Positions 6,031 to 14,336 of a stretch of 38,046 bases of DNA are shown piece by piece. Position numbers and translations under genes: made by a program. Source of the DNA: Pseudomonadales bacterium (lineage in GTDB: Bacteria; Pseudomonadota; Gammaproteobacteria; Pseudomonadales; Azotimanducaceae); contig JADHNI010000035.1 in assembly GCA_016779585.1 (NCBI GenBank), positions 1-38,046 on the forward strand, in the 5' to 3' direction. Position 1 is the first letter of the stretch. Each line of letters starts with the position of its first letter. The notes below the pieces were generated by a model. The model did not search any database. It had not been told where the DNA came from and worked only from the letters and a program-made list of their open reading frames with translations.

Positions 6031-6498
6031 CTAGTCGCTGATATTCAAGCGGCTCTCAGGATCGACTCGTTTGATACTGAAGCTTTTGTCGGGATCCTCA
6101 ATCGGCTGGGATGGCCTGCGCCTGACAAACCGCATCGATGACATATTGACACCCCAGGGCATGACCTGCGCCCGCACAAGCCTCATTTGCACCCCGGGGT
6201 CCTGGGCAGCAAGTTTCTGCGCTTCCTCGAGAGACCCCGTCCTGAGTAACATCGCGCTCAGCGCATCATAGGTAGTGTCTTCAACCACTGGCCCACCCAT
6301 AACTACCTGGTCGTTTAAGTGCAGTTCTTTCAGGTAATCGTGATGTTTCTTCAGGCCAGGTTGTTTTTCATAACCCAGCGCCTCATTCCAGGACGGTCCC
6401 GGCGTGTAAAGCAGCAGGAAATAACTTGTCTCCTCACCGTTCGCTGCTGCGCACAACAGAAAAAGGGTGAACAACAGGAGTCTCAGGCGATCAGTCAC
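6031..6498 (-). CDS. YCII-domain protein with signal peptide
   Basis: A 155-residue protein with a YCII-like (ferredoxin-fold) domain, seen as the SYFLLLYTPGPSW opening, the conserved HHDYLKEL helix, the GGPVV strand and the terminal MPWGV-type strand. The start is GTG 6498, which overlaps the upstream stop by eight bases and gives a clean signal peptide (LRLLLFTLFLLCAAA). A longer in-frame reading to 6597 exists but would bury that signal and overlap the upstream gene by more than 100 bases. Most YCII proteins are cytoplasmic and about 100 residues, so an exported version is unusual. The function is unknown; YCII domains occur in chloromuconolactone-dehalogenase-like enzymes. Confidence 0.7.
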   Translation of the reverse strand: MTDRLRLLLFTLFLLCAAANGEETSYFLLLYTPGPSWNEALGYEKQPGLKKHHDYLKELHLNDQVVMGGPVVEDTTYDALSAMLLRTGSLEEAQKLAAQDPGVQMRLVRAQVMPWGVNMSSMRFVRRRPSQPIEDPDKSFSIKRVDPESRLNISD

Positions 6499-6832
6499 TG
6501 ACCTTCTTGTGTATATGAGGCAGGGAACTCGGATCTTTTGGATCAAGAAAACGCTTCTCGGTACCGGTACGGGTAACGTTTTCGTAGGTACCGTCATAAC
6601 GTTTCTCCAGCTTGGTAAACCCGAGGTTCTTCAGATGTGCATTCCCGGCGGGGGTATTCGCCATGGGCGGCGTAGTGATGACCTTGCGAATGGACGAGGA
6701 CACCGGGGTATCTCCCGGATCAATGGACGCCAGTTCACACAGCTCACCCCAGGTGGAAATAGTCGTCGCTATACTGTGCACAACCTCAACGGTTCTGCCG
6801 TTTTCATCACAAATGTAGTCGTAACGTGGCAA
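6491..6832 (-). CDS. FmdB/zinc-ribbon-like small protein (putative)
   Basis: A 113-residue protein opening MPRYDYICDENG, the form typical of FmdB-family zinc-ribbon regulators, and continuing with the WGELCELA and DPGDTP segments of that family. Only two cysteines are evident, so the zinc knuckle looks degenerate. The start is TTG 6832, chosen because AGGAG lies eight bases upstream and this gives the family's usual MPRYDY start. A TTG at 6850 overlaps the previous stop but has no ribosome binding site. The gene is translationally coupled on both sides: it follows the DUF5916 stop closely and overlaps the YCII start. Its role here is unknown. Confidence 0.65.
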   Translation of the reverse strand: MPRYDYICDENGRTVEVVHSIATTISTWGELCELASIDPGDTPVSSSIRKVITTPPMANTPAGNAHLKNLGFTKLEKRYDGTYENVTRTGTEKRFLDPKDPSSLPHIHKKVSD

Positions 6833-6846
6833 CTTGTTAACTCCTG

Positions 6847-9264
6847 TCAAGAACCAAAACGATACCTGAGTTTTACCACCAGGAAATCACCGAGGGGATT
6901 ATCATACCCATCCGAAAAGGCATCTGAGAAGCTCTTTAGCGGACCTGAATCATCCAACAACCGGGTATAGACCACAAACAGATCTGACAACGGCGCCATT
7001 TCCCATCGATACCTTAACTGCAGGCTCAGGTCATTCAGGCTGAAGCTGTCTGTCGGGCCCGCCGGTTTGTCCACAGGGATCAGGTCACCTGGTCGGTCCG
7101 GCACCAGGAAGAATTCGTCTTCTTCCGCCTGGATGCCAACCCACTGCAGTGAGGCACGGAACTGCTGGCGAGCGGTCAGGAAATAGTCAGTGCTGAACCT
7201 GACCTCCCACTGCTCTGCATTGAAGGTCGTCATGTTGCGATCTTCCTGGTGCAGCAACCAGCCTTCACGATTGACATGACGCAGCGTGGTGGAGAGCGAG
7301 AATCGATCACTGGGCCGCCAGTTAACTTTAAAGCGACCAATGTAGGTATCGCCGCCGAGGTCCTCCTCCGAGAAACCGGCACCTATTTCAAAGCTGACCG
7401 GTTTCGTGGTATCCGAGTCCCAGGAGAAGCCTGCGAAAGACTCCTCTTCTATCCTGTAAGCGCCGTTCCCAAAGCTGTTCAGGTCATCGTACTGTTCAGG
7501 CTGGAAACTGGCTCTCAGCGTCAGGCTGGAAAGGTTGTCGAATGTCATCCGGTCCGCCAGGAAGATTCCGCCGCCGGTAAAGAGCCCCTCATCATTTCGC
7601 TGCACGAACCCCCTGATATCAAACTCATTGTTCCTCGCCCAGGAGATATCTGAACTGGTGCGAACGTGTGCTGTTCGAATTCTCAGGGCATCGTTTCGCT
7701 GCAGAAAGCCCAGGTCATTGATATCGACATGTTCGTCCTGGTACTCAATGCCCATTCGTTGAACCACTCCCTGGCGAAAAGTGTATTCAAAACCCACGAA
7801 GCCGCCGAAACCTGTATCTGTCTCCTCGTTGATGTCGTCTACGTCAGACATGTAAACCTGACCATCAATCTTCCACTTGCCGTCTTCAGACAGAAAGTGC
7901 CCGTCTATGCCATGTGTCTTTGCTTCCCGTTGGTCATTGAATACCGCGGTAGACATAACGCCCACGGCACGATAGGCACCCCCCGGCGCATCCTCAAACA
8001 GGACCCTGGCAACACCATAGTCGCTGCTCTCACCCTCCAGATGAATCGGGTCGCCGTTTCGCTCCGCATTAAACTTCACGTCATCCTCGAAAGCGCCCAG
8101 GAAGCCATAACGCAGACGACCGGATTGCCCCGTGACTTTGATTGCACCCAACAGGTCAACAGGCCGTATCAGGTCACGCTCTGCGATTTCCAGATCCGGA
8201 TCCTCTGCAGGTTCCAGGGGTGGACCGCCAATCCGGCGGGTGTTGATCAGCGTGGTTGGTGAGCCCCCTCGCCCAACGCCTCCTCGATTGGGTCTCGACC
8301 GGGGCGTGGCAATAAATATCTCCCGACCTTCCAGGAAAAACAGGCGTTTTTCCGGGAAAAAAACCTCTGTCGCTGAGAGATTGATCACGACGTCATCACT
8401 TTCCACGGCACCAAAGTCAGGGTTGATGGTGGCGGTCATCTGGAAATTGGATGAGGGTCGCCAAAAGAAATCCGCGCCTACCCGGTATTCCACATCGTCG
8501 TCTATCCGATCATGTGTGATCGCCGTAAAGGGGTAGATGCTGTACTGCTGCTTGGGATTGATACCACCGATCGAGAGTGGCTGCAGTGCAGAAATAAACT
8601 TCGGCACAGTGGAGGGAAGTCCTGGCCAGCCCCAATTTTCATCCACGTAGGCCACCTTCCGCGACATGTAGAGCCCGATGCGGCGACTGCCTTCAACGCT
8701 GGGCATGGCGACCGTACCCCAGGGTATGTGAAATTCACCTGACCAGCCGCTGGCTGTCTCGGCACTGGCGCCGCGCCAGGCACCATCCCATTCATTTGAA
8801 AACTGACGTTCAGGAAGAAGCGTCCCGTCTGACAGCGAGTCACCCAGATTCACACCAAACCAGTAGCCATATCGACCCTCACCGGAGGTATCCATGGTGA
8901 TGTTGATGGAATCCCGGTTGAGCCCGCCATTATCCCTGCCGGAAAGCCTGGCGATCAGGGTTTCCGGAGGCTGGTCCATATCAACACCGAAATAGATGCC
9001 CGTGCGGTCATAAAACATTCGCACCCGAGTGGCGTGCGACGTTGCTGCCAGTGTGTCGGGTTCAACAACCACGAACTCATCGTAGGCAGGAAGACCTGAC
9101 CAGACGTCCTCATCAAGCACGCCATCGATACGCACACCATTGTCCGGTATGCGCTGCACCACGATTGTTTCGTTGTCGCCGAGATCTACAACCAGATCGC
9201 CGGGTTCAGCCAAAGACAGCAGCGGAAAAAGGATTCCCAGTACAACAGGAATGGTTCTAGACAA
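6847..9264 (-). CDS. DUF5916 protein: CBM9-like domain plus outer-membrane beta-barrel
   Basis: An 805-residue exported protein. A signal peptide occupies about the first 19 residues. A CBM9/DOMON-like beta-sandwich follows (about 35-230), with the IDGVLDEDVW opening and TRVRMFYD strand. The large C-terminal part matches the DUF5916 barrel, with alternating amphipathic strands, the NPDFGAVESDDVVINLSATEVFFPEKR-type hallmark (here split across residues about 285-310) and the closing strand VVKLRYRFGS. Such proteins are thought to sit in the outer membrane; the substrate is unknown. The start is TTG 9264, eleven bases after the ligase stop, with AGAGGA five bases upstream. Context suggests binding or uptake of the compound processed by the neighbouring ligase and oxygenase. 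Confidence 0.85.
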   Translation of the reverse strand: MSRTIPVVLGILFPLLSLAEPGDLVVDLGDNETIVVQRIPDNGVRIDGVLDEDVWSGLPAYDEFVVVEPDTLAATSHATRVRMFYDRTGIYFGVDMDQPPETLIARLSGRDNGGLNRDSINITMDTSGEGRYGYWFGVNLGDSLSDGTLLPERQFSNEWDGAWRGASAETASGWSGEFHIPWGTVAMPSVEGSRRIGLYMSRKVAYVDENWGWPGLPSTVPKFISALQPLSIGGINPKQQYSIYPFTAITHDRIDDDVEYRVGADFFWRPSSNFQMTATINPDFGAVESDDVVINLSATEVFFPEKRLFFLEGREIFIATPRSRPNRGGVGRGGSPTTLINTRRIGGPPLEPAEDPDLEIAERDLIRPVDLLGAIKVTGQSGRLRYGFLGAFEDDVKFNAERNGDPIHLEGESSDYGVARVLFEDAPGGAYRAVGVMSTAVFNDQREAKTHGIDGHFLSEDGKWKIDGQVYMSDVDDINEETDTGFGGFVGFEYTFRQGVVQRMGIEYQDEHVDINDLGFLQRNDALRIRTAHVRTSSDISWARNNEFDIRGFVQRNDEGLFTGGGIFLADRMTFDNLSSLTLRASFQPEQYDDLNSFGNGAYRIEEESFAGFSWDSDTTKPVSFEIGAGFSEEDLGGDTYIGRFKVNWRPSDRFSLSTTLRHVNREGWLLHQEDRNMTTFNAEQWEVRFSTDYFLTARQQFRASLQWVGIQAEEDEFFLVPDRPGDLIPVDKPAGPTDSFSLNDLSLQLRYRWEMAPLSDLFVVYTRLLDDSGPLKSFSDAFSDGYDNPLGDFLVVKLRYRFGS

Positions 9265-10814: not shown

Positions 10815-11014
10815 GTATCCCCCTTCCGATTTAGATGATTCGGTTTACCAGGTCGCGCCACGGCTGCATCGTTCTCCTTGACAGGACTATTGCACTGCGG
10901 AAAACCGGGCGAGCCGCAATTGTAAGGGCTTTGGGCGGCCCCGTCGATGAAAGGTCTTTCCGAGCCAGTCTTTTCTCCGTACACTTTCCCAAACCCTCTT
11001 TTCCCTTGGTCTCC
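10815..11014. other. Divergent intergenic region, ligase / MBL-cNMP gene
   Basis: This 200-base spacer separates two divergent genes. It holds a perfect TTGACA on the plus strand (about 10877-10882) but no good -10 at 16-18 bases. The frame of the plus-strand gene stays open through most of it back to ATG 10835, but the encoded stretch is Arg-rich, lacks a family match and would leave only 20 bases for both promoters, so I treat it as non-coding. Confidence 0.5.
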
Positions 11015-13174
11015 ATGAACGCACCGGTTGTTGAAATTCCGGCACAGGGCAGTCGTATCGTCAAAGGCGGGGACGACGTCATCCTTTTCGGGCAGCCACC
11101 TGAAGTCCTTAAGGGACTCCTGGTCAACAATGTCACGGGCTTCGAAACCCTGGTGCTTACTGACGTCCGGGAAAAAGACGGTTCCCTGATCAACAACCTC
11201 GAGTTCCCGATCTACTTCTTCCTGTTTGTCATGAACGGTCTGGGACAAGGCAAAAAACTCAATCTCGTTGGCGAAAAAGAAGACATCAGCCAGGCGCTGC
11301 GCCTGCTGCGTTTTACCCTTATGGGTCCCACTCGCGCTGAACTCGAGGCCTGGGAAACGGATGAACCGCTGAAAGAAGAGTGGTTAGCGGTCGCCGACGC
11401 CATTGCACTGAAATATGACGATGGTGACATCATCCCGGTCGAGGAGTTTTTCCACGCCAGGCCCTTCGTCGACGGCGAAGCCCAGGTCGGAGAACTTACC
11501 ATCCGGCACGTTGGCCAGGACCACTACCAGGTCATCAACGATGCGGGTGAAGCCACTGTTAACCTGAACCAGGATTTTGAGATCCAGCCTTGTTATCCCG
11601 TACAGCGGGACTATGTACCGGGCGGGCTCGTGAAAATGGGGCTGGAGATTCTCGGCGGTGCATCCGGGTTCACACCGGAAGAACCTTGTACCGGTCTTGC
11701 GCTTTGTTATAACGGCGACTACCTCCTGATTGATTCCATCCCCTTCCTGGACCAGCACCTGTTTGCAAGGGGCATCTCGAAAAACCAGGTGTCAGCGGTG
11801 TTCCTAACGCACCTGCATGACGATCACTGCGCCATGTTTCCCCTGATGTTGATGCCGCATCGTGTTGAGGTCATTACAACCCGGGAAATCTACAACATGG
11901 CAATGGAAAAGCTGGCCTGCAGCCTGGGCTGGACCGTTGACGCGGTTGATGAACACTTCAAACTGGTGGAAGTTGTCCCCGGGGAAAGCCTGAATTACTA
12001 CGGTATGGACATCCTGCCTCATATTACCGTTCACAGCATTCCTACGATAGGCGCCACCTTCAGCACCATACACCGCGGTTACGAGCGGCCGATCTGTATC
12101 GTTGGCGACAATCACACCATGACCACGATCCGCAAGCTGCACAAGGAAGGTCACGTCCGCGACGAAACCCTGGAAAATCTCGAACATCTGTACACAGACC
12201 GCTTCAGCCTGCTGGTTGCAGACGGCGGCGCCGGTGCCATCCACGGAGACCCGGCTGATGCGCTGAAATCCACTGCTGACCGGGTCGTGTTTGTTCACGT
12301 CGAGCAGCTGCCTAACGAATTTGATACTACTTTTTCGCTCGCGAGCTCCGGCAAACGCTACACGGTCATCGATGGCGACCCCAGCGTTTACACCTCACAG
12401 GTGAGTCACTACCTGTCACACTGGCTGGGTGAACCTTTCCCTAATCGCTGGATGCGCAGCCTGCTGGCCGAAGAAGAGATACGCAAGTACAACACGGACG
12501 ACGTCATCATCGTCCAGGATTCCGAAACACGAGGATTTGTTTACCTGATACTAACGGGGTACTGCGATGTCGTGCAGCATGACGGCACCCAGTTCAATAC
12601 GGTCGCCAATCTGCAGGCCGGTGACGTGATCGGCGAAATGGCTGTGATTACCGGGGTCGGCACAAGAAACGCCTCTGTTGTGGCACGTACCCCCGTCACG
12701 GTCTGCGTATTTTCTGAGGAGACGTTTGCGGCGTTTATAAAAACCGAGGGTTTCCGGGACAAGCTGCTTAATCGCTGGGCACTTCGCCCCATCATCAAGG
12801 CCCTGCCCCAGTTCAACATGATGACGTCAACCGCACTTGAGAAAGTAGGCAACATCGCCCGTTTTGAAATCCTTGAAAAAGGTGATTCGCGTCGATTCGA
12901 TGACTCAGCCTGGTACATCCTGGCAGAAGGTAGGATCGAAGACGATGAGGGTGCCAGGGGTCCGTCCGCCGAGTACGGGTGGCGACCGTTCGCTGAAAAC
13001 AATTGTACCTCGGTGACCTGCCTCGAAGACTGCCGGTTTATCAAATTTCGAAGGGATCACCTGGAAACCCTTCGACGCGAAACGCCGCAGCTCAACTACT
13101 ACCTGCGCAAACAAAGAGTGGGGCAGGCAAACGCCCTGGTTGACTGGTTACTGGCAGAAGTCGATATCTACTGA
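11015..13174 (+). CDS. Metallo-beta-lactamase-fold protein with C-terminal cyclic-nucleotide-binding domains
   Basis: A 719-residue soluble multidomain protein. The middle part is an MBL-fold hydrolase with the metal motif THLHDDH (HxHxDH, about residues 264-270) and later metal-ligand candidates in VGDNHT and VADGGAGAIHGD. Residues about 490-575 form a cNMP-binding domain whose phosphate cassette GEMAVITG...TRNASVVA keeps the Glu and Arg expected for cAMP/cGMP binding. A second, degenerate cNMP-like domain (about 610-695) lacks the cassette. The N-terminal 200 residues are not recognised. The start at ATG 11015 is uncertain; an in-frame ATG at 10835 would add 60 residues of doubtful quality. 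The 3' end overlaps the convergent phosphoribosyltransferase by seven bases. A nucleotide-gated hydrolase is the natural inference; the substrate is unknown. Confidence 0.8.
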   Translation: MNAPVVEIPAQGSRIVKGGDDVILFGQPPEVLKGLLVNNVTGFETLVLTDVREKDGSLINNLEFPIYFFLFVMNGLGQGKKLNLVGEKEDISQALRLLRFTLMGPTRAELEAWETDEPLKEEWLAVADAIALKYDDGDIIPVEEFFHARPFVDGEAQVGELTIRHVGQDHYQVINDAGEATVNLNQDFEIQPCYPVQRDYVPGGLVKMGLEILGGASGFTPEEPCTGLALCYNGDYLLIDSIPFLDQHLFARGISKNQVSAVFLTHLHDDHCAMFPLMLMPHRVEVITTREIYNMAMEKLACSLGWTVDAVDEHFKLVEVVPGESLNYYGMDILPHITVHSIPTIGATFSTIHRGYERPICIVGDNHTMTTIRKLHKEGHVRDETLENLEHLYTDRFSLLVADGGAGAIHGDPADALKSTADRVVFVHVEQLPNEFDTTFSLASSGKRYTVIDGDPSVYTSQVSHYLSHWLGEPFPNRWMRSLLAEEEIRKYNTDDVIIVQDSETRGFVYLILTGYCDVVQHDGTQFNTVANLQAGDVIGEMAVITGVGTRNASVVARTPVTVCVFSEETFAAFIKTEGFRDKLLNRWALRPIIKALPQFNMMTSTALEKVGNIARFEILEKGDSRRFDDSAWYILAEGRIEDDEGARGPSAEYGWRPFAENNCTSVTCLEDCRFIKFRRDHLETLRRETPQLNYYLRKQRVGQANALVDWLLAEVDIY

Positions 13175-13737
13175 GCTGTTTTCGCTTCAGCGAGAATCGC
13201 GGCCAGCTCCGGACGATGATCGACAATTTCATCCTGGCTCAGTCCTTCAAGCGAGTGCGGAAACTTCAGCCAGTCCTCGGTCTCATGAATGAAATAATCA
13301 GGCACGCGTCCACTCAGGTTCCTGGTGGGTTTGTAGTAGGGAACGGCAACACGAATATCTGATGGCGTGTTTAAGCGTGCCTTTTCGTTCAGGTGATCAA
13401 TCACCGCCTCAATACTGCGACCGGTATCAAACACATCATCGACGATAAGGAGCGAGTCGTCATGACAGACGTTCTTGATGAGATAGTTCATGGAGTAAAC
13501 GCGCACCTCATCTTCCCGGCCATCAATACCTGAATAGGAAGCCGTCCTGATGGCAATGTGGTCTGAAACAATTCCGCGTGCCCTGAGCATCTCCTGGACC
13601 GCGACACCAATAGGTGCACCACCACGCCAGATGGCGACAATAAAAGTTGGCCTGAACCCGGAATCCGCGACCATTGCGCCAAGCTGCCAGCTATCTTCAA
13701 GCAGCTGCTGCGCGTCCAGATATTTTTTTAATGTCAT
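13168..13737 (-). CDS. Phosphoribosyltransferase paralogue A
   Basis: A 189-residue type I phosphoribosyltransferase. The PRPP-binding loop is LLIVDDVFDTGRS (two acidic residues, then DTGRS) and the FIVAIWRGGAPIG segment is the usual N-terminal PPi loop. Overall form resembles short hypoxanthine/xanthine PRTases, so purine salvage is possible, but the base specificity hood is not diagnostic. The start is ATG 13737 (MTLKKYL). An in-frame upstream start would overlap the divergent paralogue. It lies head to head with paralogue B with only 23 bases between start codons, and shares the same domain plan and the DSWQLG/DSFRLG opening, pointing to an inverted duplication or ancient paired genes. Confidence 0.85.
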   Translation of the reverse strand: MTLKKYLDAQQLLEDSWQLGAMVADSGFRPTFIVAIWRGGAPIGVAVQEMLRARGIVSDHIAIRTASYSGIDGREDEVRVYSMNYLIKNVCHDDSLLIVDDVFDTGRSIEAVIDHLNEKARLNTPSDIRVAVPYYKPTRNLSGRVPDYFIHETEDWLKFPHSLEGLSQDEIVDHRPELAAILAEAKTAQ

Positions 13738-13760
13738 GCTGTACAGACTAGAATGAAGCC

Positions 13761-14336
13761 ATGAGCGAGACAACCAAAACCTATCTTTCCGAGCAGACTG
13801 TCATGGAAGACAGCTTCCGGCTGGGTGTGCAGATCTACAACAGCGGCTTCCGCCCCACCTTTATCGTTGGGCTCTGGCGCGGTGGCAGCACTGTGGGGAT
13901 TTACGTACAGGAATGCCTGCAAACCCTGGGCGTGGAAACCGACCATATTGCCATCCGGACATCCTACGAAGGCCAGGGCGATTACCACGACATGATCAAC
14001 AATCCGCAGCAGGAAATTCGGGTCCACGGGACCCAGTACCTGCTGGAAACCCTGAATCGGGACGATTCATTGCTGATCGTCGATGACGTTTTTAGCACGG
14101 GGCTCAATGTCCAGGCAGTAATGGATCGCCTCACCACAAGATTGAAGAGAAACATCCCTGAAGAGGTTCGTGTCGCAACGCTTTGGTACAAGCCAGATGC
14201 GAGGCGAGTCGAACTGGAACCGGACTATTACCAGGCAACCACCGACGACTGGTTGGTGCTCCCTTATGAGTTGACCGGTCTCAGCGAGGAAGAGCTGCGA
14301 CAGTTCAAGCCTGCCGCAGCCAGACATCTCCTTTAG
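13761..14336 (+). CDS. Phosphoribosyltransferase paralogue B
   Basis: A 191-residue type I phosphoribosyltransferase related to its divergent neighbour. The PPi loop is FIVGLWRGGSTVG and the PRPP loop is LLIVDDVFSTGLN: Asp-Thr-Gly-Arg-Ser of paralogue A becomes Ser-Thr-Gly-Leu-Asn, so the loop is altered at residues that contact the PRPP phosphate and PRPP affinity or activity may differ. A TAGAAT hexamer (13749-13754) could act as a -10, which would make the mRNA start at or near the ATG. Only a weak GAAG precedes the start. The pair may form a heteromer in which B is regulatory. The gene ends four bases before the convergent acyl-CoA dehydrogenase. Confidence 0.82.
   Translation: MSETTKTYLSEQTVMEDSFRLGVQIYNSGFRPTFIVGLWRGGSTVGIYVQECLQTLGVETDHIAIRTSYEGQGDYHDMINNPQQEIRVHGTQYLLETLNRDDSLLIVDDVFSTGLNVQAVMDRLTTRLKRNIPEEVRVATLWYKPDARRVELEPDYYQATTDDWLVLPYELTGLSEEELRQFKPAAARHLL

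Follow-up and report, generated by a model that had tools for sequence, protein, structure and literature searches.

A gammaproteobacterial protein with two predicted metallo-β-lactamase folds and cyclic nucleotide-binding domains: a candidate self-regulated cyclic-nucleotide phosphodiesterase

The Dictyostelium proteins GbpA and GbpB consist of a metallo-β-lactamase (MBL) domain and then two cyclic nucleotide-binding (CNB) domains, and binding of a cyclic nucleotide activates the enzyme, according to the portion of PMC11988041 cited here. Apyc1 and YhfI hydrolyse cyclic mononucleotides, as set out in the sections of PMC9117128 on which we draw, and the motif [T/S]HXHXDH, with X generally a hydrophobic or small residue, is given as the signature of bacterial atypical class-II phosphodiesterases in the part of PMC9293780 that we use. 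Here we analyse a gene that unites features of these systems, found in a stretch of 38,046 nucleotides (the window) from a Pseudomonadales bacterium of the Azotimanducaceae (NCBI GenBank assembly GCA_016779585.1, contig JADHNI010000035.1). An earlier note on this DNA had suggested that the product is either an enzyme switched by cyclic AMP (cAMP) or cyclic GMP (cGMP), or an enzyme that breaks down a nucleotide signal. The anatomy of the protein and its relatives favour the two in combination, a judgement that comes from comparison. With a rough probability of 0.55, we propose that the protein is a phosphodiesterase of cyclic nucleotides whose activity is controlled when a cyclic nucleotide binds to its own sensor.

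In this proposal, the catalytic MBL domain would hold two metal ions in an HxHxDH-H-D-H site and convert a 3',5'-cyclic mononucleotide, of which cAMP is the likeliest, by hydrolysis into the 5'-monophosphate. An N-terminal domain of the same fold that has lost its metals, here termed the pseudo-MBL domain, would replace the second protomer of homodimers of the Apyc1, YhfI or RNase Z type, and would probably hold or complete the active site. A cyclic nucleotide seated in the first CNB domain (CNB1) would reposition the paired CNB domains and raise activity, resulting in feedback control like that of GbpA and GbpB. We infer the substrate, the identity of the ligand, the direction of regulation and the roles of the pseudo-MBL domain and its residue E63 from the evidence that follows.

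The gene lies at 11015..13174 on the + strand and encodes 719 amino acids plus a stop, an assignment based on the open frame and on a methionine common to homologues. Pfam residue positions are given on the longer, 779-aa frame discussed below, and all other residue numbers on the 719-residue protein. The four-domain polypeptide described in the earlier note, with an N-terminal domain, an MBL domain, a CNB domain and, after it, a second CNB domain that is degenerate, proved to be real and conserved by Pfam, alignment, AlphaFold2 and Foldseek. An AlphaFold2 model of the full protein, built with 26 alignment rows, has a pLDDT of 90.7, a pTM of 0.92 and no residue below 50, such that we treat the folds as confident predictions. 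The gene is under purifying selection: the ratio of non-synonymous to synonymous substitution rates (dN/dS) was 0.017–0.14 in the 11 of 20 comparisons with a computable dS, which was near saturation, and undefined in the other nine.

Conservation was assessed within the protein's own clade and across a sister group. In a midpoint-rooted tree of 55 sequences the 25 window-clade proteins form one clade with support 1.0. The sister group comprises 31 rows (L030 and L047–L076); L047 was omitted from the tree as a duplicate, and in the alignment of 56 rows it and L030 are the same gene counted twice.

The catalytic MBL domain spans residues 205–453 (11627..12373, +), as defined by Pfam, AlphaFold2, and structure and profile searches; Pfam Lactamase_B matches at 291–360 with E 3.8e-6 and 27.4 bits, over a cut-off of 22.7. 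The earlier note had read its HxHxDH motif as intact, and THLHDDH is indeed present, with H266, H268, D270 and H271 (11810..11827, +) identical in 56/56 rows. Equally invariant are H340 (12032..12034, +), D365 (12107..12109, +) and H428 (12296..12298, +), which, by the pattern of the MBL family, we take to be a metal ligand, the bridging ligand and the last ligand, respectively. So too are D403, G405, G407 and H410 of a second-sphere motif, D403-x-G-x-G-x-x-H410 (12221..12244, +). H340, D365, H428 and H410 are also invariant in 26/26 rows of a smaller alignment (A1), and 86 of the 249 columns of the domain are invariant among the 25 window-clade rows. The metal site, which the earlier note allowed might lack its remaining ligands, is therefore complete.

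The domain comes closest to cyclic-nucleotide phosphodiesterases of the Apyc1 type and to RNase Z. When a profile of it (A3, 11 rows) was compared with Protein Data Bank (PDB) sequences, Apyc1 7u2s came first (E 5.1e-7, profile positions 5–137 of 254, 133 positions), with Apyc1 7u2r at E 1.2e-6 (positions 7–77). An hhalign comparison with nine same-phylum members of the Apyc1 family (one of which was truncated) gave a probability of 98.5 and an E of 2.4e-14 over 240 columns, and matched the D403...H410 segment to the D...VHA segment of Apyc1 homologues. THLHDDH fits the [T/S]HXHXDH signature, though its second X is Asp, unlike the hydrophobic or small residue described as usual in the part of PMC9293780 cited.

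The earlier note had left the N-terminal domain unrecognised. It is not an unknown fold: by predicted structure it looks like a degenerate MBL domain without metal ligands, with DVREKDG at the position that HxHxDH occupies in the active MBL. We place this pseudo-MBL domain at residues 1–200 (11015..11614, +) on the basis of an AlphaFold2 model of residues 1–195 alone (18 rows, pLDDT 86.8), Foldseek, VIA-align and the span of a match to ELAC2. Foldseek ranked Apyc1 7u2r first for the isolated domain (E 5.7e-4), but on the weaker side this was the single match at E <= 0.001, the TM-scores to MBL structures were about 0.3–0.47, and unrelated integrases appeared from rank 16 on. VIA-align gave Apyc1 ranks 1–3 (Z 10.2, 10.1 and 9.8; root-mean-square deviation (rmsd) 3.3–3.5; 150–151 residues aligned), only modestly above the tool's background Z of 7–8, and all 50 entries that it listed are MBL-fold proteins, judged by their titles; families missing from that list are not thereby excluded. 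Among solved structures compared with the full model, the human long-form tRNase Z ELAC2 (8rr1) aligns across residues 1–453 (Z 20.3, rmsd 4.0, 370 aligned). On this prediction, the protein pairs a pseudo-MBL with an MBL domain, the arrangement of long tRNase Z.

Within the pseudo-MBL domain, in which 34 of 200 columns are invariant among the 25 window-clade rows, G56, N60, E63 and F64 are identical in 56/56 rows despite the low identity of the sister proteins (21–23% to the window protein in those measured). E63–F64 (11201..11206, +) is a candidate counterpart of the trans glutamate of Apyc1. In Apyc1, which is a homodimer, catalysis requires E74 and Y112 from the opposing protomer, according to the cited part of PMC9117128. 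With H64, H66 and H69 numbered as in that paper, E74 maps to the Glu of HADHxGGLE in the Apyc1 homologues aligned here. The active MBL has Pro276 at the E74 position in 25/25 window-clade rows, and Glu stands there in 0/56 rows; in the AlphaFold2 model and the alignment, E63 stands at the start of the matching helix of the pseudo-MBL domain. Since the active MBL carries Pro276 and the pseudo-MBL domain an invariant E63, the fused pseudo-MBL domain may act as a second protomer and supply E63 in place of Apyc1 E74. The role of E63 could equally be structural. A counterpart of Apyc1 Tyr112 was looked for in the pseudo-MBL domain of window-clade proteins and not found: at position 103, Tyr occurs in 30/31 sister rows, but 20/25 window-clade rows have Met or Leu.

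CNB1 covers residues 488–600 (12476..12814, +), based on its predicted fold and on a Pfam match to cNMP_binding PF00027 at 550–637 (E 2.6e-17; 63 bits, cut-off 27.5). In CRP and in protein kinase A (PKA), the Glu and Arg of the phosphate-binding cassette contact the ribose and phosphate of the ligand. The alignment of window-clade and sister rows places the CNB1 cassette at 12614..12694 (+) and bears out the earlier description of it as intact, in that E541 and R551 are both kept; R551 is present in 23/25 window-clade rows, with Asn in L038 and L042. L042 also has Asp for the cassette Glu, and both proteins keep the metal site. A loss of cyclic-nucleotide sensing is possible in these two, judging by the substitutions.

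The degenerate second CNB-like domain (residues 601–719; 12815..13171, +), delimited by AlphaFold2, Foldseek and column conservation, was not detected by Pfam in the window protein, and it is the least conserved part of the protein, in which 6 of 119 columns are the same in all 25 window-clade rows. The earlier note's description of it nevertheless holds, as the AlphaFold2 model has a strand-rich domain at this position and the top Foldseek matches to the full model are the tandem CNBs of PKA and protein kinase G (PKG), over 254–310 columns with a best E of 4.4e-15. The TM-scores of these matches are low and their rmsd is 8–21, which we think comes from a different placement of the two lobes.

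The sister proteins share the order pseudo-MBL, MBL, CNB, CNB; some are a bare core of 714–757 aa, while others are longer, and some have a receiver domain in front or a hemerythrin domain behind. Among nine chosen relatives scanned with Pfam, eight showed two CNB stretches, two (L054 and L065) a receiver and three (L050, L054 and L073) a hemerythrin domain, that of L050 lying just below cut-off. The group, which belongs to the same phylum, is apparently unnamed. The canonical CNB1 Arg is present in 0/31 sister rows, replaced by an alignment gap in 30 and by Leu in one, and the metal site is intact. Five rows (L050, L063, L065, L066 and L068) have an Arg within two residues of the canonical position, and most have one just after the following T[YF]; L074 is cut in this region. 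Because these Arg residues lie near the canonical position, another mode of phosphate binding is possible in the sister group. Sister proteins that lack the canonical Arg, and in some cases carry receiver or hemerythrin domains, are also what would be expected of sensor hubs whose CNB module fails to bind cyclic nucleotides, or whose metal site senses metal, oxygen or NO, and which work by partner contact. For the window protein such a pseudo-sensor role is improbable, given the retention of the cassette in 23/25 window-clade rows and of the metal ligands throughout the 56-row alignment.

Returning to the phosphodiesterase, a more elaborate version would have the dead MBL, fused in cis, donate E63 to an active MBL phosphodiesterase gated by cyclic-nucleotide sensors, with the gate rewired in the sister group. 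There the CNB pair would have lost its canonical Arg and some proteins would have gained receiver and hemerythrin domains, leaving phosphorylation and oxygen or iron, in place of cAMP, to set the rate of cyclic-nucleotide destruction. We are doubtful of this version taken as a whole, and advance it tentatively.

A likely source of the messenger is at hand. The genome from which the window comes (3.49 Mb in 130 contigs, 94.6% complete) has two class III cyclases, one of CHASE2 type (690 aa; L078:1677-3749, −) and one MASE2-like (412 aa; L079:1828-3066, −; MASE2 at 23.6 bits, just under the 25-bit cut-off), which are the likely origin of the signal, and 13 CNB matches, the window protein included. 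A class I adenylate cyclase (PF01295), considered as an alternative source, had no match in this genome and occurs in 11 of 150 genomes of the family and in no carrier of the window-type gene. CpdA likewise had no match in the window's genome at E <= 1e-3. Across the 150 genomes, a PF00211 cyclase is present in 26/26 carriers and 81/124 non-carriers (Fisher p 7e-5), and a CpdA-like gene (NF008359, E <= 1e-30) in 2/26 carriers and 78/124 non-carriers (p 1e-7), or 42/81 non-carriers when only cyclase-bearing genomes are counted (p 6e-5).

Several observations weigh against the phosphodiesterase reading, the first of them bearing on the choice between phosphodiesterase and nuclease. By predicted structure the MBL domain resembles RNase Z and Apyc1 equally: VIA-align gives tied Z scores to ZipD (22.4), Apyc1 (22.1; rmsd 2.7, 219 aligned), RNase Z (22.1), and YhfI and a PhnP-family diphosphatase (21.9 each), and ELAC1 is among the PDB sequence matches of the MBL profile (E 1.5e-5). 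The window protein scores 21.5 bits with NF041851, a curated model for atypical class-II phosphodiesterases (cut-off 400), and Apyc1 PF23023 was not listed for it at E <= 1; in 8/9 sister or paralogue proteins PF23023 reaches 18–23 bits, where the cut-off is 50. With ZipD and the B. subtilis RNase Z tied for best match, and with ELAC2 the listed solved structure that spans both MBL domains, the tandem could instead be a tRNase Z-like RNase switched by cAMP on CNB1. However, the profile search prefers Apyc1, and the protein scores far below the curated RNase Z cut-offs (TIGR02651 22.3 against 292.95; NF000801 22.8 against 252). Moreover, the MBL domain is compact, at 249 residues near the size of Apyc1 (244) and YhfI (241), and only 223 of the 306 ZipD residues align, so the extra tRNA-binding arm is probably missing. 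We therefore consider a cyclic-nucleotide-gated nuclease unlikely. On the side of the pseudo-MBL domain, hhalign found no sequence similarity to Apyc1 homologues or to the protein's own MBL domain (probability 0.04 and 0.18). As to the sensor, two clade members lack R551, and the sister group keeps its metal site without the canonical Arg, which implies that in the wider family the MBL chemistry is independent of canonical sensing.

The genomic setting also adds points on the same side. The window's genome has a stand-alone Apyc1-family MBL gene (L080; G000:C82:2399-3181, E 6.6e-36), by sequence a probable second cyclic-nucleotide phosphodiesterase, and so the window protein need not be the cell's sole enzyme of this kind. 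The anticorrelation with CpdA follows clades, and the p values above ignore shared ancestry; the CpdA threshold of E <= 1e-30 was chosen after viewing the data, and only 3/150 genomes pass that model's own cut-off. In addition, 39 cyclase-bearing genomes have neither a window-type gene nor a CpdA-like gene, and two of the carriers tallied hold fragments only. Given the shared ancestry, the post-hoc threshold, the few genomes at cut-off and the 39 with neither gene, we regard the association of cyclases and CpdA with carriage of the gene as suggestive only.

The gene is not part of an operon in the window: a convergent gene shares 7 bases with its 3' end, and the neighbour on its 5' side is divergent. 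The commonest upstream neighbours in related loci include an opposite-strand acyl-CoA ligase, common to 5/9 loci with at least 5 kb upstream, and an acyl-CoA dehydrogenase-like gene just upstream in 4/9 (about 30% identity to the window dehydrogenase by BLASTP; one checked with Pfam). These neighbours, the many substrates that MBL folds accept, and the presence in the top structural list of 8gyg, titled an arylsulfatase, would suit a cyclic-nucleotide-switched hydrolase of some other small molecule (an acyl, lactone or sulfate ester or another phosphodiester) tied to acyl-CoA metabolism. We think this unlikely: the acyl-CoA genes lie on the opposite strand, share no operon with the gene and were not seen in the clade's remaining loci, and the closest sequence relatives of the MBL domain are phosphodiesterases.

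Two Pribosyltran genes (Pfam) do adjoin the gene, as the earlier note had observed. They are divergent, at 13168-13773 (−) and 13761-14336 (+), with overlapping frames, and both match the HGPRTase model best, far below its cut-off. The functional link that the note drew from them is not general: at BLASTP E <= 1e-10, homologues of the two adjoin a relative in only 1/11 named loci with at least 2 kb downstream, that of the nearest relative (L031), in a search that covered homologues of these two genes and not unrelated phosphoribosyltransferases. The twelfth named locus, L033, has almost no downstream DNA. A neighbour encoding 119 aa (window 6491-6850, −) has counterparts at 58–83% identity in 6/12 named loci and no Pfam match at E <= 0.01.

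The frame containing the gene is open from an ATG at 10835 (10835-13174, +; 779 codons). We prefer the start at 11015, in agreement with the earlier note, because homologues share this methionine, L006 has a stop two codons before its equivalent, and the matches of two same-genus relatives that extend above 11015 hold stops. The open frames of some other relatives reach further up, and thus the start at 11015 is likely, not proven.

Matches to the window protein at E <= 1e-20 occur in 26 of 150 genomes of the window's taxonomic family, its own included; two of the 26 carriers have fragments, in G101 at a contig end and in G135 with stops. At order level, 4/244 genomes have a match, again counting its own, two of these being pieces. 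At phylum level, 56/349 genomes, its own among them, match at E <= 1e-25, and many hold up to three copies, three being the most that this search scored per genome. Record titles of the named relatives read Gammaproteobacteria, Pseudomonadales or Proteobacteria. L010 (G046:C42) is a copy interrupted by a stop, and L029 (G135:C43) a fragment with several stops; such broken copies reflect either gene loss in places or assembly errors.

A role in defence against phage, or in phage, was considered and set aside, as no defence-system evidence emerged; PADLOC, run on the window protein and the two phosphoribosyltransferases from the window, matched five Pycsar-type models (TIR effectors and cyclase), with the best stretches within residues 461–577 of the window protein, around the CNB. 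The window protein had no tblastn match among PLSDB plasmids, and one scan of viral contigs gave a single weak match (L077) of 77 residues around the MBL motif. The sister protein L054 matched 1718 plasmid records; the 20 that were listed span no more than 22% of its length, at residues 1–245 around the receiver, and are uninformative.

If the proposal is right, bacteria of a gammaproteobacterial lineage have a self-regulated phosphodiesterase of the class IIb type described in Dictyostelium, a social amoeba. It would help to explain how cAMP is restrained in a lineage whose carriers possess class III cyclases and only rarely a CpdA-like gene. It would also show that, outside tRNase Z too, an inactive MBL can sit fused in front of a working one, and E63 offers a testable prediction of this. 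Beyond that, it would bring into view what seems to be an unnamed set of multi-domain regulators from the same phylum, certain of which have receiver or hemerythrin domains. No paper on this bacterial architecture was among the literature matches listed, which were judged by titles and abstract openings with most subscription journals uncovered, and are weak evidence of novelty. The general mode is known from GbpA and GbpB; the tandem with a pseudo-MBL domain and the altered sister group set this protein apart as a variant of it.

Among the known systems closest to the window protein are GbpA and GbpB (class IIb), which likewise have a catalytic MBL domain with two CNB domains behind it, and by anatomy the window protein should work in the same way. 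Unlike them it is bacterial, and its second CNB is degenerate; it also has an N-terminal pseudo-MBL domain, the comparison with GbpA and GbpB being by description only. With Apyc1, YhfI and Rv1339 it shares an MBL fold of about 245 residues, THxHxDH and the best profile match, and both of its MBL domains resemble Apyc1 in predicted structure. However, it scores below the curated family cut-offs, and where Apyc1 and YhfI form homodimers from chains of some 245 residues, which leave no room for CNBs, its second MBL is a metal-free fused domain. The first MBL domain of ELAC2 is degenerate, and the window protein likewise has a degenerate MBL fused ahead of an active one, with 370 residues superposing. 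It differs from ELAC2 in its CNB domains, of which none is known in ELAC2, in its compact MBL without an obvious tRNA arm and in a score far below the RNase Z cut-offs. Finally, it has two tandem CNBs, like the PKA regulatory subunit and PKG, the best Foldseek matches to its model; unlike theirs, its second CNB has no recognisable cassette, and its output is an MBL domain, not a kinase.

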